Assembly: GCF_015354405.1 (NCBI RefSeq)
Contig: NZ_JADKYP010000065.1
Coordinates: 1-33,531 of the forward strand
Direction: 5' to 3'
Source of the DNA: Nocardia sp. BSTN01
Lineage (GTDB): Bacteria > Actinomycetota > Actinomycetes > Mycobacteriales > Mycobacteriaceae
DNA: 33,531 nucleotides
The notes under the pieces are model-generated. The model did not search any database. It was not told the DNA's origin and saw only the letters and a program-made list of their open reading frames with translations. A program made the translations under genes and the position numbers. Positions 4,405-10,843 of the stretch are shown in pieces. Within the stretch, counting starts at the first letter, position 1. The number at the start of each line of letters is the position of its first letter.

Positions 4405-4420
4405 CTTACCTTGGAGTAAG
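4405..4420. promoter_or_regulatory. TetR operator, copy 1 (autoregulatory site)
   Basis: CTTACCTTGGAGTAAG is an imperfect palindrome 32 bases before the TetR start codon. Read on the other strand it is CTTACTCCAAGGTAAG, differing in two central positions from the site at 9320-9335. Its right arm overlaps a TANNNT -10 hexamer (TAAGAT, 4417-4422), so a bound repressor would block this promoter. Confidence 0.75.
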
Positions 4421-4452
4421 ATAGGGGTTTCGATATGGGCTAGGAGTGGTGG

Positions 4453-5052
4453 ATGGCAGGCGGAACGAAGCGGCTTCCCAGGGCGGTTCGTGAGCAGCAG
4501 ATGCTGGACGCCGCCGTCGAGGTCTTCTCCCGAAAGGGATACCACGACACGTCGATGGATGCCATCGCGGCCGAGGCCAAGATCTCCAAACCGATGCTGT
4601 ATTTGTACTACGGCTCCAAGGACGAACTGTTCCGGGCGTGCATTCAGCGCGAGAGCGCGCGCTTCATCGAGGCCGTCGCGGTGGCCGGCAATCCCAAGCT
4701 GACCCCGCACGAGCAGTTGCGCGCCGGCCTCGAGGCGTTCCTGTCCTATGTCGACAACAACCGGCTGTCGTGGTCGGTGCTGTACCGGCAGGCCCTGGGG
4801 CAGCAACCGTTCGCCTCCGAGATCGCGAACAGTCGCGAGCGCATCATCGAACTGACCGCGAAACTGCTCGAGTCGAGCGCCAAATATGCCGAGCCCGGAA
4901 TGGATTTCGACATCGTCGCGGTGGCGGTGATCGGTGCGGGCGAGGCGATCGCCGACCGGATCGCCAGCGGTGAGGTCGATGTCGCCAGCGCTGTCGACCT
5001 GCTGGACAATCTGGCCTGGCGCGGTCTGGCCGGTAAGAAGAAAGCCGAGTAG
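4453..5052 (+). CDS. TetR/AcrR-family transcriptional regulator
   Basis: A 199-residue regulator. The ATG has TAGGAG (4441-4446) six bases upstream. The N-terminal winged-free HTH covers about residues 14-60: MLDAAVEVFSRKGY, then MDAIAAEAKISKPMLYLYYGSKDELF, the classic TetR helix-turn-helix. The rest is an all-helical ligand-binding domain that I cannot match to a ligand. It is the positional counterpart of M. tuberculosis Rv0238 (between lpqI and htdX-fabG4). A palindrome in its own promoter recurs in the fabG4/fadA2 promoter, so it is probably an autorepressor that also controls the fatty-acid genes, with an acyl-CoA as a reasonable but unproven ligand. DUF5685 follows 53 bases later in the same direction and may be co-transcribed. 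Confidence 0.93.
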   Translation: MAGGTKRLPRAVREQQMLDAAVEVFSRKGYHDTSMDAIAAEAKISKPMLYLYYGSKDELFRACIQRESARFIEAVAVAGNPKLTPHEQLRAGLEAFLSYVDNNRLSWSVLYRQALGQQPFASEIANSRERIIELTAKLLESSAKYAEPGMDFDIVAVAVIGAGEAIADRIASGEVDVASAVDLLDNLAWRGLAGKKKAE

Positions 5053-5105
5053 ACACCGGCGAAACGCGCCGTCCGACTTGCGCGGCGCCGTCGGCACCTG
5101 CCAGA

Positions 5106-6836
5106 GTGCGGATTGCACAGATGGCCGGATTGCCGATGCGGCCGGGGTTCTACGGGGCGGAATTGTTCGGACTTCTCACGCCGTGCGCGCACAGCGCGGC
5201 GAAATACGGCCTGGATGCGGCAGATTGGCGCACGCATATGTGCGGACTGTGCCTGGGCCTGCGCGACGGGCACGGGCAGCTGGCCCGCACCGCGACCAAT
5301 ACCGACGCGATCGTGCTGAATGTGCTCACCGAAGCACAGACCGGTGCCGCCGCGCGGACCGCGGCCGGGCCGTGTGCGCTGCGCGGTATGCAACGTGCCT
5401 CGGTCGCCGCGGCCGGATCCCCCGGGGTGCGGCTGGCGACGACCGCGTCACTGTTGCTGGGAGCGGCCAAGATTCGCGACCATGCCGACGACGGCGACGC
5501 GGGTCCGCTCGCCCGGCGGCCCATGCGGAAGGTGGCCGATCGCTGGTTCGCCTCCGCCCGCGCGAACGCCGCCGACATCGGGCTGGATATCGAACCGCTC
5601 ATCGCCGCGATCGGCCGCCAAGCGGAACTCGAGCGGGCAGTGCAGTCGCACACTGTGTCCGATGGGCACAGACACGACGCGCCGGCGGGGCAACCACGCG
5701 CTCGCACCGCGTACCGCACCCGTGTCGTCCAGGGTGCGACGTCCGGCATCCCGTCGGATAACACCGAATTATGCTCGCCGACAGTAACTTTCACGCCGGT
5801 AGAGCTCCTCGCTACTCTCACCGAGCCGACGCAGACGTGTGCCGCGGAGTTGTTCGCCCATAGTGCGGTACTGGCGGGCCGCCCGGAGAATACGCGGGCC
5901 CTGCGAGAGGTCGGTCGGCACTTCGGGCGCATCGCTCACCTGGCCGACGCCATCGAAGATCTCGACGACGATCGCCGCCGGAATCGCTTCAATCCGCTGC
6001 TCGCCACCGGAGTGAGCGCCGAAGAGGCGCACAGCCTGCTGCGTGAATCCGATGCCGAAATCCGCCGTGCCCTGCACCGGGCGAAACTCGCGCACGTTCC
6101 CGCCATCCGCTGGCTGTTGCTCGATCCGTTGCGCGGCGTCGTCCGGAAGCTGGGCCGAGCCGCGGCCGTAGCGTGCGGCGACGCGACATCTGCCTGCGGC
6201 TGCGGAAAGCGCGGCGGCCGAACACTTTCCGACGGCGCCGATGCCGACGCGGCAGTACAGCTGCTGGGCTACCCCGTGGCAGCCGGGCACATTCGCCCGT
6301 CGGCAGCCGCGGCGGCGCCGGCCGGCATCGGCGAAGTCCGCTTCCGCACCGGCGAGGCGGTTACGGCGCAGCAGCCCTATCAGCCGAATCCCTACCAGCC
6401 CGCGCCCTATCCGGCGCCACCGCCGTATCAGCCGAATCCCGCTGGGCCGCAGGTGGATCCGTCACCCTACCCCGGTCAGGATCCGTATCCCGCGAGCCCG
6501 GTGCAGCCCTACGACATCCCGCCGCCGTTCGGTGATCGCCCGCCGAGCGATCCGTATCCCCCCTCGGACGAGCCACCGCACGAGCCTCCGCGACGACCCA
6601 CCTTCTGGCAGGGAATCGGGATCATCTGCGGGGCGTACTGCACCGGATACGCCTGCTGTGCCGGGCACCGGCGGCCGTGCAGCGGGGAACACCGGGATGC
6701 CTGGCTGCAGCGGTGCGACTGCGATTGCGATTGTTGCGACTGCGGTGACTGCGAGGGCTGTGGCGATTGCTGCAGTTGCTGCAACGGTTGCGGCGACTGT
6801 GACTGCGATTGCTGCGGCTGCGACTGCAGTTGCTGA
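5106..6836 (+). CDS. DUF5685 family protein with Pro/Tyr-rich linker and 20-Cys tail
   Basis: Up to 576 residues. The body matches DUF5685: LFGLLTPCAHS, then HMCGLCLGLRDGHGQLAR and TNTDAIVLNVLTEAQ, and later LADAIEDLDDDRRRNRFNPLL, an acidic cluster in helical context. Four candidate starts exist (GTG 5106, ATG 5121, ATG 5136, TTG 5163); homologues typically begin at the Met-Phe-Gly equivalent, which favours TTG 5163, but no ribosome site decides. From about residue 415 the protein becomes Pro/Tyr/Gln-rich with repeated PYQPNP-like units, then a short segment with five cysteines (about 505-525). It ends in 41 residues of which 20 are Cys, alternating with Asp and Gly. The function is unknown. 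The tail suggests metal or Fe-S binding or heavy disulphide content; this is inference. Homologues with Cys-rich tails are known in actinobacteria. Confidence 0.85.
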   Translation: MRIAQMAGLPMRPGFYGAELFGLLTPCAHSAAKYGLDAADWRTHMCGLCLGLRDGHGQLARTATNTDAIVLNVLTEAQTGAAARTAAGPCALRGMQRASVAAAGSPGVRLATTASLLLGAAKIRDHADDGDAGPLARRPMRKVADRWFASARANAADIGLDIEPLIAAIGRQAELERAVQSHTVSDGHRHDAPAGQPRARTAYRTRVVQGATSGIPSDNTELCSPTVTFTPVELLATLTEPTQTCAAELFAHSAVLAGRPENTRALREVGRHFGRIAHLADAIEDLDDDRRRNRFNPLLATGVSAEEAHSLLRESDAEIRRALHRAKLAHVPAIRWLLLDPLRGVVRKLGRAAAVACGDATSACGCGKRGGRTLSDGADADAAVQLLGYPVAAGHIRPSAAAAAPAGIGEVRFRTGEAVTAQQPYQPNPYQPAPYPAPPPYQPNPAGPQVDPSPYPGQDPYPASPVQPYDIPPPFGDRPPSDPYPPSDEPPHEPPRRPTFWQGIGIICGAYCTGYACCAGHRRPCSGEHRDAWLQRCDCDCDCCDCGDCEGCGDCCSCCNGCGDCDCDCCGCDCSC

Positions 6837-6868
6837 TCGGGCCGCCGATCGCCGGCCCGGACCGACGA

Positions 6869-6950
6869 CAGCCGCCCACCTTTTCGCCTTCGCCACATAT
6901 CGAATCCCCCATGCGATCCGATATGCGGCCGCCGAGAAGGTGGGCGGCTG
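6869..6950. terminator. Nested inverted repeat between convergent genes (bidirectional terminator)
   Basis: A perfect 14-bp stem (6869-6882 with 6937-6950) encloses 54 bases that contain an inner 7-bp stem (6896-6902 with 6919-6925). It occupies the 133-base gap between the convergent DUF5685 and htdX genes, 32 bases after one stop and 19 bases after the other. It probably terminates both transcripts. Confidence 0.6.
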
Positions 6951-6969
6951 TTCGTGTGCCGTTCGCTGC

Positions 6970-7839
6970 TCAGTGCAGCGTCGCGGTCAGATGAGGGTAG
7001 CCCTTCTTCGGATGTTTCAGCGACAGATCCCAGCCCTCTGCGGTCTGGTCGGCGTAGACGTTGACCGTGGACGGCAGCAGGATCGGCTTGCCGAATTTCA
7101 CCGCGTAGGCCGTCTTCGCGGGCACCCGGCCCTCGATGACACCGAGGATCGCGGCGGCCGACCACATGCCGTGAGCGATCGACCGCGGGAAGCCGAAGGC
7201 CTTCGCCCCGAGCGCCGACATGTGGATCGGGTTGCGGTCACCGGAGGCGGCCGCGTAGCGATGGATCATCGCCTGGTCGACCTTCAGCGTGCGCAGCGGC
7301 GGCGGGGGCACCTCGTCCGGCTTCGGCGCCGCCTTCGGGCCACCGGACAGCGAGGTGCGCTGCTGGTGCAGGAAGGTGGTGACCTGCCGCCACACCAGTT
7401 CACGCCCCACGCTGATCTCGCTGATCGCGTCGACCAGCAGACCCTTCGGATGCTCGCGCAGGTTCTCCACGTGGGCACGGATGTCGAGCGGTTCGCTGAC
7501 CGAGATCTCGCGGGTGCGCTCGATCAGATTCTCCGCGTGCACCGCGCCGACCGCGACGAACGGGAAGTCCCGGGCCACCACCAGCTGCATCACCACGGGG
7601 AAGGTGAGCACGAACGGATAGGTCAGCGGCAGGGAGTCGCCGAAGCGCAGCCCGGTCGCGTGGCAGTAGGCGGCGAGGTGGTCGGGATCGACGCGGACGC
7701 CGTTCCATTCCACCGCACGGTCCGGAATCTCGGATTTGCGCGCCGACACCAGCGGCAGCGGAACGGCACCCAGGGCGGCCTTGAGATACAGGCTGCCGGT
7801 CTTGGGCGGCTCGTTCAGCGAGATGGTCTGGGTTGCCAC
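6970..7839 (-). CDS. htdX: MaoC-like double-hotdog (3R)-hydroxyacyl-thioester dehydratase (HtdX-type)
   Basis: A 289-residue protein with an N-terminal hotdog lacking catalytic residues and a C-terminal hotdog carrying the hydratase-2 motif: YAAASGDRNPIH (Asp about 199, His about 204) followed by GFPRSIAHGM. It interconverts (3R)-hydroxyacyl and trans-2-enoyl thioesters in fatty-acid synthesis or reverse beta-oxidation in the cytoplasm. The GTG start at 7839 is one base after the fabG4 stop, indicating translational coupling. Size, order and strand relative to fabG4 are as in M. tuberculosis Rv0241c (HtdX, about 280 aa). An alternative name would be simply MaoC/dehydratase domain protein. Confidence 0.92.
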   Translation of the reverse strand: MATQTISLNEPPKTGSLYLKAALGAVPLPLVSARKSEIPDRAVEWNGVRVDPDHLAAYCHATGLRFGDSLPLTYPFVLTFPVVMQLVVARDFPFVAVGAVHAENLIERTREISVSEPLDIRAHVENLREHPKGLLVDAISEISVGRELVWRQVTTFLHQQRTSLSGGPKAAPKPDEVPPPPLRTLKVDQAMIHRYAAASGDRNPIHMSALGAKAFGFPRSIAHGMWSAAAILGVIEGRVPAKTAYAVKFGKPILLPSTVNVYADQTAEGWDLSLKHPKKGYPHLTATLH

Positions 7840-7840
7840 G

Positions 7841-9202
7841 TCAGGCTCCGATCATGGCCTGGCCGCAGACGCGAACGATGTTGCCGTTCACCGCATTCGA
7901 GGCCGGGCTGGCGAAGTAGGCGATGGTCTCGGCGACGTCCACGGTCTGCCCGCCCTGCAGCAGCGAGCTGAGCAGCCGGCCCGCCTCACGGGTGCCGACC
8001 GGAATGGCGGCGGTCATCGCGGTCTCGATGAAACCGGGGGCGACGGCGTTGATGGTGATGCCCTTCTCGGCCAGCTTGGGCGCCTCGGCGTTCACCATGC
8101 CGATGACACCGGCCTTGGAGGCGCCGTAGTTGGTCTGGCCGCGGTTGCCGGCGATACCGGCGATCGAGGACACGTCGATCACCCGGCCGCCCTCCTTCAG
8201 CGCACCCTTGGCCACCAGGCCCTCGGTAATGCGGTGCGGCGCGGCCAGATTGACGTTGAGCACGGCATCCCAGCGGGCGGCGTCCATGTTCGCGAGCAGC
8301 TTGTCGCGGGTGATGCCGGCGTTGTGGACGATGATGTCGACGCCGCCGAAGCGCTCGGTGGCGAATTCGGCGATCTTGTCCGCGGCATCGGCGGCCGTGA
8401 CGTCGACCGCGAGCGCGGTGCCGCTGACCTTGTTGGCGGTCTGCGACAGCGCCTCGCCGGCGGCCGGGATGTCGGCGACGATCACGGTGGCGCCGTCGCG
8501 GGCGAACACCTCGGCGATGGTCGCGCCGATACCGCGGGCGGCGCCGGTGACCACGGCGACCTTGCCGTCGAGCGGCTTGGTCCAGTCGATGCCGGCGGCG
8601 GCGTTGTCGTCCTTGCCGACCCGGAAGACCTGGCCGTCGACGAACGCCGACTTGGCCGAGAGGATGAAGCGCAGGGTCGACTCCAGACCGGTGGCGGCCG
8701 CGGCGGCCTCCGGGTGCAGGTAGACCAGGTTGGCGGTGGCGCCGCGCAGAAGTTCCTTACCCACGCTGCGGGAGAAGCCCTCCAGCGCGCGCTGCGCGAT
8801 CTGCGCGTCGACACCGCCCGCGAGTTCCGGCGTGGTGCCGACCACCAGCACGCGGCCGGAGGGGGCGATCGAGCGCATGGCCGGCTGGAAGAACTCGAAC
8901 AGCTGCGACAGTTCCTCGACGGTGCCGATGCCGGTGGCGTCGAAGACCAGTGCGCCGACCTTCACGCCCTGGGTGGGGGCGTCGACGAAGGTGTAGTCCG
9001 ACAGCAGGGTGCGCGCGGCGTCGGCGACGCGGCCCTTACCGCCGAGCAGGACCGGGCCGGGCAACGCCGGCTCGCCCGGGGCGTAGCGGCGCAGCTTCTC
9101 CGGCTGCGGCAGGCCCAATTTGCCGGCCAGGAAGGCGCCGGGGGCGGAATTGACGAACGAACCGTAAAGGTTGGGAGCGCCCTTGCTCTTGCTGGCTGCC
9201 AC
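7841..9202 (-). CDS. fabG4: 3-oxoacyl-ACP/CoA reductase FabG4 (two-domain SDR)
   Basis: A 453-residue high-molecular-weight FabG, like M. tuberculosis FabG4 (Rv0242c, about 454 aa). Residues 1-205 form the flavodoxin-like N-terminal domain (with [16 protein letters not shown] and VLVVGTTPE). From about 212 a classical SDR ketoreductase follows: [16 protein letters not shown] for cofactor binding, HNAGITRDK, and the catalytic Ser of DVSSIAG with Tyr/Lys of NYGASKAG (about 358/362). Long FabGs of this class usually prefer NADH. It reduces 3-oxoacyl thioesters to (3R)-hydroxyacyl thioesters. The start is GTG at 9202, with a purine-rich stretch containing AAGGAG and AGGA just upstream. It leads the two-gene operon with htdX and is transcribed from the divergent promoter carrying the TetR-type palindrome. 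Confidence 0.95.
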
Positions 9203-9319
9203 TGTTCCTACCTTCTCCTTGTGTCGAATGTGGACGATCTGGACGTCTGCCGTTTCCGTATCTCCCCATTACCCCGCGCGTTGTAGCCCACATCTCCGGG
9301 GTACGGTGTCGACAATTAA

Positions 9320-9335
9320 CTTACTCCAGAGTAAG
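9320..9335. promoter_or_regulatory. TetR operator, copy 2 (fabG4/fadA2 divergent promoter)
   Basis: CTTACTCCAGAGTAAG has perfect 7-bp arms, extending to 9-bp arms at 9318-9337. It lies in the 303-base gap between the divergent fabG4 and fadA2 starts. TANNNT hexamers occur on both strands within or beside it (TAAGTT on plus at 9332-9337 and its mirror on minus), so one bound dimer could shut both promoters. I see no small gene in the rest of 9203-9505. Confidence 0.75.
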
Positions 9336-9505
9336 TTTAATGTAAACCGACGGAATCGCCGGCAGTGCGGTCGGCCCTGGTACCGACTTCATCCCCACCA
9401 TGCGGCATTCCCGGCTCCGGACTGAGAAAACCTGACGAGACAGCGCCTACCCACCCGCCGGCTCCGCAAGCTCCGCCGGCCAGACCGTCCACCAAGGAGA
9501 CTCGA

Positions 9506-10843
9506 GTGACTACCAAAGCCCGTTCGGCGAAGACCGCACCATCGAGCAGCCGGGCCGACAAGGCCAAGCAGGCCAAGCCTGTCGCCGTCCTCGGCGGTAA
9601 CCGCATCCCGTTCGCTCGCTCCGACGGCCGGTACGCCCACGCCTCGAACCAGGACATGTTCACCTCCGCGCTGAACGGCCTGGTCAGCCGATTCGGGCTG
9701 CAGGGCGAGCGGCTCGGCATGGTCGTCGGCGGCGCGGTGCTCAAGCGGGTCGGCGAGCACGGCATGGTCCGGGAGAGCGTGCTGGGCAGCGAACTGTCGC
9801 CCTACACCCCCGCGCACGATCTGCAACTGGCCTGCGGCACCGGCCTGCAGTCGATCGTCACCGTCGGCGACGCCATCGCGCTGGGCCGGATCGAGGCCGG
9901 TATCGGCGGCGGCACCGACACCACCTCCGACGCGCCGATCGGTGTGAGCGAATCCATGCGCGAATGGATGCTCGACGCCAACCGGGCCCGCAACAACAAG
10001 GATTACGTCAAGCTCGTCGGCCGGCTGCGCCCGAGCATGGTGGGCATCGAGATCCCGCGCAACGCCGAGCCGCGCACCGGCCTGTCGATGGGTGATCACG
10101 CCGCGATCACCGCCAAGGAGTTCGGGATCGCCCGCGAGGCGCAGGACGAACTGGCCTACCTCTCGCACAAGAACATGGCCGCCGCCTACGACCGCGGCTT
10201 CTTCGACGACCTGGTCACCCCGTTCCTGGGCCTGACCCGTGACGACAACCTGCGCCCGAACTCCTCGCTGGAGAAACTGGCCACCCTGAAGCCGGTCTTC
10301 GGCAACAAACTCGGCGACGCCACCATGACCGCCGGCAACTCCACCCCGCTCACCGACGGCGCCTCCGCGGTACTGCTGGGCAGCGAGGAGTGGGCCGCCG
10401 AGCGCAACCTGAAGCCGCTGGCCTACCTGGTCGACAGCGAAGTGGCGGCGGTCGACTACGTCTGGGGTCCGGACGGTCTGCTGATGGCGCCGACCTACGC
10501 GGTGCCGCGCCTGCTCGCCCGCAACGGCCTCACCCTGCAGGATTTCGACTACTACGAGATCCACGAGGCGTTCGCCTCGGTCGTGCTGGCCACCCTGCAG
10601 GCGTGGGAATCCGACCAGTACTGCAAGGAGCGGCTGGGCCTGGACGGCGCCCTCGGAGCGATCGACCGCACCAAACTCAATGTCAACGGCTCCTCGCTGG
10701 CGGCCGGGCACCCGTTCGCCGCGACCGGTGGACGCATCATCGCCCAGACCGCGAAGCAGTTGGCGGAGAAGGGTTCCGGACGCGCGCTGATCTCCATCTG
10801 CGCCGCCGGCGGCCAGGGTGTGGTCGCCATCCTGGAGCGCTGA
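9506..10843 (+). CDS. fadA2: Acetyl-CoA acetyltransferase / 3-ketoacyl-CoA thiolase FadA2
   Basis: A 445-residue thiolase, the size of M. tuberculosis FadA2. The GTG at 9506 has AAGGAG (9494-9499) six bases upstream; the open frame extends to 9365 but without support. A Lys/Ala/Ser-rich N terminus of about 25 residues precedes the thiolase fold. The nucleophilic cysteine is C110 in QLACGTGLQS, the histidine is H402 in SLAAGHPFAATGG, and the second cysteine is C432 in SICAAGGQG. It cleaves 3-oxoacyl-CoA or condenses acetyl units, in the cytoplasm. It is divergent from fabG4-htdX and shares the palindromic operator, so dehydratase, reductase and thiolase are probably controlled together. Confidence 0.95.
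   Translation: MTTKARSAKTAPSSSRADKAKQAKPVAVLGGNRIPFARSDGRYAHASNQDMFTSALNGLVSRFGLQGERLGMVVGGAVLKRVGEHGMVRESVLGSELSPYTPAHDLQLACGTGLQSIVTVGDAIALGRIEAGIGGGTDTTSDAPIGVSESMREWMLDANRARNNKDYVKLVGRLRPSMVGIEIPRNAEPRTGLSMGDHAAITAKEFGIAREAQDELAYLSHKNMAAAYDRGFFDDLVTPFLGLTRDDNLRPNSSLEKLATLKPVFGNKLGDATMTAGNSTPLTDGASAVLLGSEEWAAERNLKPLAYLVDSEVAAVDYVWGPDGLLMAPTYAVPRLLARNGLTLQDFDYYEIHEAFASVVLATLQAWESDQYCKERLGLDGALGAIDRTKLNVNGSSLAAGHPFAATGGRIIAQTAKQLAEKGSGRALISICAAGGQGVVAILER

Follow-up and report, generated by a model that had tools for sequence, protein, structure and literature searches.

Which regulator reads a 16-bp palindrome that occurs at two promoters of a lipid locus in Nocardia sp. BSTN01, and which genes does it govern? 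The window analysed here is the whole stretch of 33,531 nucleotides (contig NZ_JADKYP010000065.1, positions 1 to 33,531 of the forward strand), in which a GH3 gene lies upstream of a TetR-family gene and htdX, fabG4 and fadA2 lie downstream. A first-pass annotation, made from the sequence, had proposed that the TetR protein controls its own gene together with those for the ketoreductase, hydratase and thiolase. Our results identify the regulator as the Nocardia counterpart of the published FdmR, hence a known kind of repressor, and the TetR protein encoded at 4453-5052 is very probably an operator-bound, autoregulated repressor of fatty-acid breakdown that long-chain acyl-CoAs are predicted to release. 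The features on which the argument depends are as follows.

4405-4420, + strand: operator of the TetR (fdmR) gene, CTTACCTTGGAGTAAG, read in the window; orthologue loci carry the same element.
4453-5052, + strand: predicted TetR-family repressor, FdmR orthologue, 199 amino acids (PF00440, PF21943).
6970-7839, - strand: htdX-like MaoC-domain hydratase (PF01575).
7841-9202, - strand: fabG4, a 3-oxoacyl reductase of the short-chain dehydrogenase/reductase (SDR) type (NCBIfam NF006110, over its cut-off).
9320-9335, no strand assigned: operator common to the fabG4-htdX and fadA2 promoters, CTTACTCCAGAGTAAG, read in the window and in orthologous intergenic regions.
9506-10843, + strand: fadA2 thiolase (NCBIfam NF006740, over its cut-off); 9506 is the likely start codon in a frame that opens at 9365.

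The htdX-like gene, which we name after the mycobacterial locus, is probably the second gene of the fabG4 transcript. Both palindromes claimed by the first-pass annotation are present, and when read on matching strands (CTTACCTTGGAGTAAG against CTTACTCTGGAGTAAG, the reverse strand of the 9320 site) they differ at 2 of 16 positions, the 14 of 16 agreement given originally. The 9320 site is palindromic except for its central pair, and the 4405 site in its five outer pairs only. A scan of the window allowing up to three mismatches returned 8 matches against a shuffle mean of 2.44, with 1 of 100 shuffles reaching 8. These window-only statistics are modest and too weak alone; therefore, the whole genome and its relatives were used.

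In the 7.8-Mb source genome, the exact pattern CTTACTNNNGAGTAAG has six sites, distributed over five promoters (one promoter holds a tandem pair 21 bp apart), whereas about 0.03 matches are expected from independent bases and a backward-read control pattern gave zero exact matches. When up to two mismatches were allowed, 20 + 16 strand matches were obtained against 14 + 18 for the control; the excess vanishes, and therefore only the strict form is informative. The earlier suspicion that such a repeated palindrome is unlikely by chance is thus borne out genome-wide, and the exact form, far from being common and unplaced, is rare and sits in promoters. Both promoters of the proposed two-promoter regulon stand, but the regulon is larger than these two, as exact sites precede not only fabG4/fadA2 but also the following genes.

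L009: acyl-CoA dehydrogenase pair, exact site upstream (families from profile matches).
L007: SDR similar to the C-terminal half of the two-domain SDR model NF005539 (E = 3e-130, under the cut-off).
L008: second SDR (NF004846, over its cut-off).
L006: gene for a DUF4442 protein, exact site upstream.

We take the dehydrogenase pair to be FadE24/FadE23-like. Upstream of the transhydrogenase gene pntAA (L010) the source genome carries a palindrome with one mismatch, and two of 13 other Nocardia genomes have the exact pattern in the PntAA promoter, which we regard as a convincing site. The remaining places with one or two mismatches look like background, as the control gives about as many. Separately, a one-mismatch palindrome at L011 4599-4614 precedes a gene resembling a YrbE/MlaE-type permease of an mce operon.

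The pattern is conserved well beyond this genome. Across the genus it was found exactly in 40 of 40 genomes (own included), with 144 + 167 exact strand matches against 7 in the backward control. Full listings were taken for 20 of these genomes, and 60 site clusters came from 13 of them, all other Nocardia, every listed cluster being used except one of G028. Fifty-five of the 60 lie within 400 bp upstream of genes named from the source genome; four of the remaining five precede a second thiolase, and one stands at a contig edge without a scorable gene. Ahead of the count, three spurious reverse-frame references were dropped and two new references introduced; the second-thiolase reference was added afterwards. 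In a family-wide sample of 61 genomes, 45 contain the exact motif and 53 a TetR orthologue (E ≤ 1e-40, a single match each; the next match in the source genome, at E = 1e-18, is well separated from this group). The pairing of regulator and motif that had been claimed at the outset is visible here, since the motif tracks the TetR gene: it is present in 44 of the 53 genomes with the gene versus 1 of the 8 without (Fisher p = 1.8e-4, uncorrected for kinship), the one TetR-less bearer being a 66%-complete draft. Order-wide, the motif was found in 0 of 38 genomes without a TetR match at E ≤ 1e-39, and looser palindromes stand upstream of several of the more distant TetR orthologues.

The genes behind the motif are also largely the same. 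Forty family and order sites were chosen by hand from the listings (every site in some genomes, part in others), and 31 of them precede homologues of the same genes, mainly fabG4/fadA2 and FadE24-like, although the L264 homologue has an identity of only 35%. Eight of the other nine precede two-domain genes of the fatty acyl reductase type (L271, assigned by Pfam, and the similar-looking L276, L289 and L297), a class 2 lipase gene (L277), a gene for a flavin monooxygenase (L261), one with a PE domain (L266) and, judged by eye, a dihydrolipoamide dehydrogenase-like gene (L273); at the ninth (L299) there is no clear gene. The L266 site, an exact operator at 1501-1516, belongs to a genome that is probably a Mycobacterium.

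Conservation at single loci was read from one profile scan, of which the best 80 loci were kept (Nocardia, Rhodococcus and relatives, mycobacteria); fabG4 and fadA2 are adjacent and divergent in 71 of them, and among these 80 loci those of N. cerradoensis, N. nova and N. africana come nearest to the window (TetR identity 99%). At up to two mismatches, these loci hold 132 pattern positions versus 3 for the backward control. Presence in front of the orthologues, the check that the first-pass annotation had set, is complete for both operators in the scored loci outside the mycobacteria. The fabG4-fadA2 intergenic operator is found in 27/27 Nocardia, 20/20 Rhodococcus-group and 23/24 mycobacterial scorable regions (70/71), and the sole miss, L181, is a scoring artefact of extrapolated gene starts that overlap, the exact site being present. 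The TetR operator lies within 200 bp upstream of its gene, at up to two mismatches, in 33/33 Nocardia, 21/21 Rhodococcus-group (54/54 together) and 4/26 mycobacterial loci, and likewise in 30 of 30 genus genomes, own included.

What kind of protein is the regulator? The solved chain that matches it best is 3f1b (E = 6e-93), which we take to be the structure of the TetR from Rhodococcus jostii RHA1, followed by 6o6p and 6o6n, which we take to be FasR structures; lower-ranked chains include 3whb/3whc, a fatty acid metabolism regulator. It scores below the NCBIfam cut-offs of all 19 named TetR models listed, including BetI, MftR and PsrA. A long-chain acyl-CoA ligand is predicted here from its sequence kinship with TetRs that regulate fatty-acid metabolism. 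The mycobacterial Rv0238 locus has the order GH3 gene, TetR, htdX, fabG4, fadA2, with fadE5 nearby. The primary study of FdmR, on Rv0238 and its M. marinum orthologue, is reportedly that of Dong et al. (2021, PNAS). According to later papers, FdmR is Rv0238, a long-chain acyl-CoA-responsive repressor of fatty-acid degradation (PMC12403877), FdmR is a key regulator of fadE5 (PMC9262360), and Rv0238 is among five TetRs conserved in all mycobacteria analysed (PMC4482099); the accessible text of the last contains no Rv0238 binding motif. Our assignment of the mycobacterial gene as FdmR is based on PMC12403877 and gene order rather than on an alignment with Rv0238. The original proposal of a TetR regulator of ketoreductase, hydratase and thiolase largely holds for sites and conservation, with the correction that the protein is the counterpart of an FdmR already published.

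How the operators are placed suggests how repression could work. An overlap with TANNNT hexamers had been noticed at the start, and we find TAAGAT before the TetR gene and TAAGTT on each strand of the divergent fabG4/fadA2 promoter.

4417-4422, + strand: candidate -10 TAAGAT of the TetR gene, sharing TAAG with the right end of the operator.
9309-9314, + strand: candidate -35 TCGACA for fadA2, with a 17-bp spacer.
9318-9323, - strand: candidate -10 TAAGTT for fabG4 (sequence match).
9332-9337, + strand: candidate -10 TAAGTT for fadA2 (sequence match).
9341-9346, - strand: candidate -35 TTTACA for fabG4, with a 17-bp spacer.

At 9309-9346 the two promoters are interleaved, that of fadA2 reading TCGACA-17-TAAGTT and that of fabG4 TTTACA-17-TAAGTT, and similar flanks are seen in most Nocardia and several Rhodococcus-group rows listed, and in none of the mycobacterial rows. 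In 10 Nocardia upstream regions inspected, the TetR-gene -10 reads TAAGAT or TAATAT, the latter in rows whose operator ends in AAT. More generally, the gene-facing end of the operator (TAAG followed by NT) yields TANNNT in 121 of 134 distinct contexts, against a T frequency of 0.20; the two sides of fabG4/fadA2 were counted separately, truncated contexts were excluded and nine site directions were set by eye. Among 68 one-sided sites, 66 have the T that lies two bases outside the operator and 53 have the A that mirrors it; therefore, the operator extends over about 20 bp, with its gene-facing side under some extra constraint. Taken as proof of a -10 element, this T is weakened by the mirror A, which is also common.

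We propose that a TetR dimer would bind AnCTTACY-N4-RGTAAGnT, so that the operator would cover the -10 hexamer (TAAGNT) of most target promoters and the bound repressor would exclude RNA polymerase; occlusion of this kind would be the simplest reading of the promoter sequences. At fabG4/fadA2, where the operator fills the shared spacer and both -10 hexamers, one dimer could silence both facing promoters, and FdmR would repress its own gene likewise, forming a negative feedback loop. Long-chain acyl-CoAs are predicted to release FdmR and thereby induce fatty-acid breakdown through FadA2, FabG4/HtdX, the FadE24/FadE23-like dehydrogenases, two SDRs and the DUF4442 protein, and in some species possibly also the second thiolase and PntAA.

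Does the same operator reach fadE5? The window begins inside this gene, which the draft splits across two contig ends (G000 C147, C169), leaving the 5' part elsewhere.

1-493, + strand: 3' end of fadE5, acyl-CoA dehydrogenase (PF12806).

The fragment is 72% identical over 163 amino acids to residues 449-611 of mycobacterial FadE5. The upstream scan that the first-pass annotation had singled out did return a palindrome, but only as a variant (ATTACTCATCGGTAAT in N. nova) that may belong to another class. Where the 5' end is covered, TTACY-N4-RGTAA variants precede fadE5 in 6 of 8 Nocardia and 0 of 2 Rhodococcus/Antrihabitans loci, the source genome has one such variant, and GTTACTGGTGGGTAAC recurs letter for letter in 15 of 15 mycobacterial loci (L158, L160, L163-L167, L171, L172, L175, L176, L178, L179, L181, L182). 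A relaxed core, TTACYNNNNRGTAA, matches 15 places of the source genome versus 7 for the control, and therefore many of these matches may be chance. Eight of the 15 are sites already named; of the seven others, which were inspected, three are clear promoter sites, those of fadE5, etfB and an EtfD-like gene; L301 and L302 are ambiguous, and L304 overlaps the start of an esterase-like gene. The seventh, TTACCCGCCGGTAA at L303 1500, lies about 100 bp before another TetR gene, whose product is a possible reader of this second palindrome class.

The sister class is best seen at etfB. Of the 47 orthologues that were scored, 46 have a TTACY-N4-RGTAA palindrome within 300 bp upstream, and none has the backward control (loci L307-L353; L354, the forty-eighth, was unscored, and the 30 family loci are those returned from 40 matching genomes); the copy of the source genome is at L305 1502-1515. 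Its outer bases are G/C in 40 of the 46 and C/G in 6. A perfect G/C copy (L306 1501-1520) precedes a membrane Fe-S oxidoreductase gene, whose product we take to be EtfD-like and an acceptor of electrons from electron-transfer flavoprotein. In two genomes, G104 and G132, the G/C-type etfB palindrome is present and the TetR orthologue absent. As a lead, the G-outer class may have its own, second regulator, although the six C-outer cases blur the line. On a tentative reading, beta-oxidation could be under a pair of sister operators distinguished mainly by the outer base: CTTACY-N4-RGTAAG, read by FdmR at the enzyme genes, and GTTACY-N4-RGTAAC, read by a second TetR at etfB, etfD and mycobacterial fadE5. 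This second layer would persist after loss of FdmR, and mycobacteria would have dropped FdmR self-feedback. We hold this reading to be possible but doubtful; it is weakened slightly by the first-class outer bases found at 6 of 46 etfB sites.

Several observations weigh against FdmR as the general and autoregulated reader of the operator. Nine of the 53 family genomes with the TetR gene have no exact motif, and order-wide it is present in only 9 of the 23 whose TetR match reaches E ≤ 1e-39. TANNNT is lacking in 7 of 25 contexts on the fadA2 side (18 positive), where the exceptions gather; the palindrome itself partly accounts for the T beyond the operator, given the mirror A. The fdmR sites carry one or two mismatches in 51 of 54 loci (3 exact), whereas fadA2 sites are mostly exact. 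In three genomes (L194, L031, L021) a different TetR gene stands next to the L008-type SDR site, and in two others (L222, L232) it lies in the same 3-kb locus; the TTAC-N6-GTAA core is common to the second palindrome class, which persists in the two TetR-less genomes. Finally, with up to two mismatches allowed, an operator within 200 bp of fdmR is missing from 22 of the 26 mycobacterial loci; therefore, autoregulation is not general, and in most of the mycobacteria examined FdmR feedback on its own gene appears to have been lost. In nine mycobacterial loci (L157, L161, L162, L165, L175, L178, L180-L182) the fdmR operator, or its left half, runs right up to the ATG, and a TANNNT lies about six bases before that codon, as in a leaderless promoter.

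Among alternative explanations, one keeps FdmR as the repressor and makes autoregulation weak or absent, the fdmR site of the window being a low-affinity relic. Consistent with this, position 6 of the site is C rather than T in 29 of 33 Nocardia loci, and most mycobacterial loci have lost the site; its retention in every Nocardia and Rhodococcus-group locus argues the other way, as do the listed Nocardia rows in which the right half changes in sequence yet TANNNT is kept (TAAGAT, TAATAT). We consider a relic unlikely.

Alternatively, a different TetR-family protein could read the operators, with fdmR merely one of its targets. The source genome offers many candidates (81 matches to the TetR at E ≤ 1e-3), and besides the neighbouring TetR genes and the shared core noted above, a TAC-N6-GTA motif is described upstream of other lipid genes in PMC3388012. 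However, the exact motif is absent from 7 of the 8 family genomes without fdmR, the eighth being the incomplete draft. The neighbouring TetRs are of two unrelated types and, as judged with four query proteins against 104 site loci, occur at one target only, the sole exception being, in L006, some TetR-like sequence roughly 6 kb away from the site. In Nocardia and the Rhodococcus group the fdmR site is as consistent as the fadA2 site, though with one or two mismatches. MadR, another acyl-CoA regulator, was set aside as binder, the motif given for it in PMC8872791 being TCTGTG. A reader other than FdmR is thus very unlikely. That the palindromes are mainly core promoter elements, with conserved outer ends serving as -10 hexamers in both directions, would suit the frequency of gene-facing TANNNT but is barely credible, as sites scored for a single gene also retain the full palindrome and mostly the mirror A, the 13 fixed bases far exceed what a -10 hexamer needs, and the exact motif is limited to few lipid genes at the Nocardia sites inspected and missing from nearly all genomes without fdmR.

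With FdmR as the preferred reader, these data yield a precise and testable operator and target list for its regulon outside mycobacteria, in genera used in lipid and steroid biotechnology. Among the matches listed, no title or abstract beginning describes this operator in Nocardia or Rhodococcus. New here are the Nocardia/Rhodococcus target set, the operator on the -10 hexamers of interleaved divergent promoters, the sister palindrome and the self-control of fdmR that most of the examined mycobacteria appear to have lost. The promoter arrangement suggests how a single dimer could silence a divergent pair, and the copies of the sister palindrome upstream of etfB and etfD point to a layer of control at the electron-transfer step of beta-oxidation. 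Apart from the regulon, a DUF5685-type protein encoded between fdmR and htdX (5106-6836) has a strikingly cysteine- and aspartate-rich tail at 6640-6836, as of a metal-binding segment.

Among known systems, the TAC-N6-GTA motif predicted upstream of Rv3229c, Rv3230c and Rv2524c (PMC3388012) has the same spacing and half-site core as the Nocardia operator; it differs in its genes and in forming clusters of 2-3 sites, and the section that describes it assigns it no regulator. The mycobacterial lipid regulons of KstR and KstR2 are likewise under TetR repressors, and the same paper finds KstR sites kept at lipid-degradation genes as far as Rhodococcus and Nocardia (PMC3388012). Those regulators are different proteins with cholesterol-linked targets, and the Nocardia TetR scores 32 bits with the KstR model NF033703 against a cut-off of 280. 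FasR, the TetR of mycobacterial fatty-acid synthase, is the nearest named NCBIfam paralogue (NF053731, 90 bits, E = 1.7e-25, against an equivalog cut-off of 330), and its solved structures (6o6n, 6o6p) are also close; the Nocardia targets, unlike those of FasR, are degradation genes. Closest of all is mycobacterial FdmR, known here through citing papers, which shares with the Nocardia system the process of fatty-acid degradation and the locus order, and whose loci conserve the fabG4/fadA2 operator. Unlike most mycobacterial loci, the Nocardia and Rhodococcus gene has its own operator, Nocardia fadE5 carries a variant site, and the Nocardia targets include SDRs, the DUF4442 protein, a second thiolase and pntAA.

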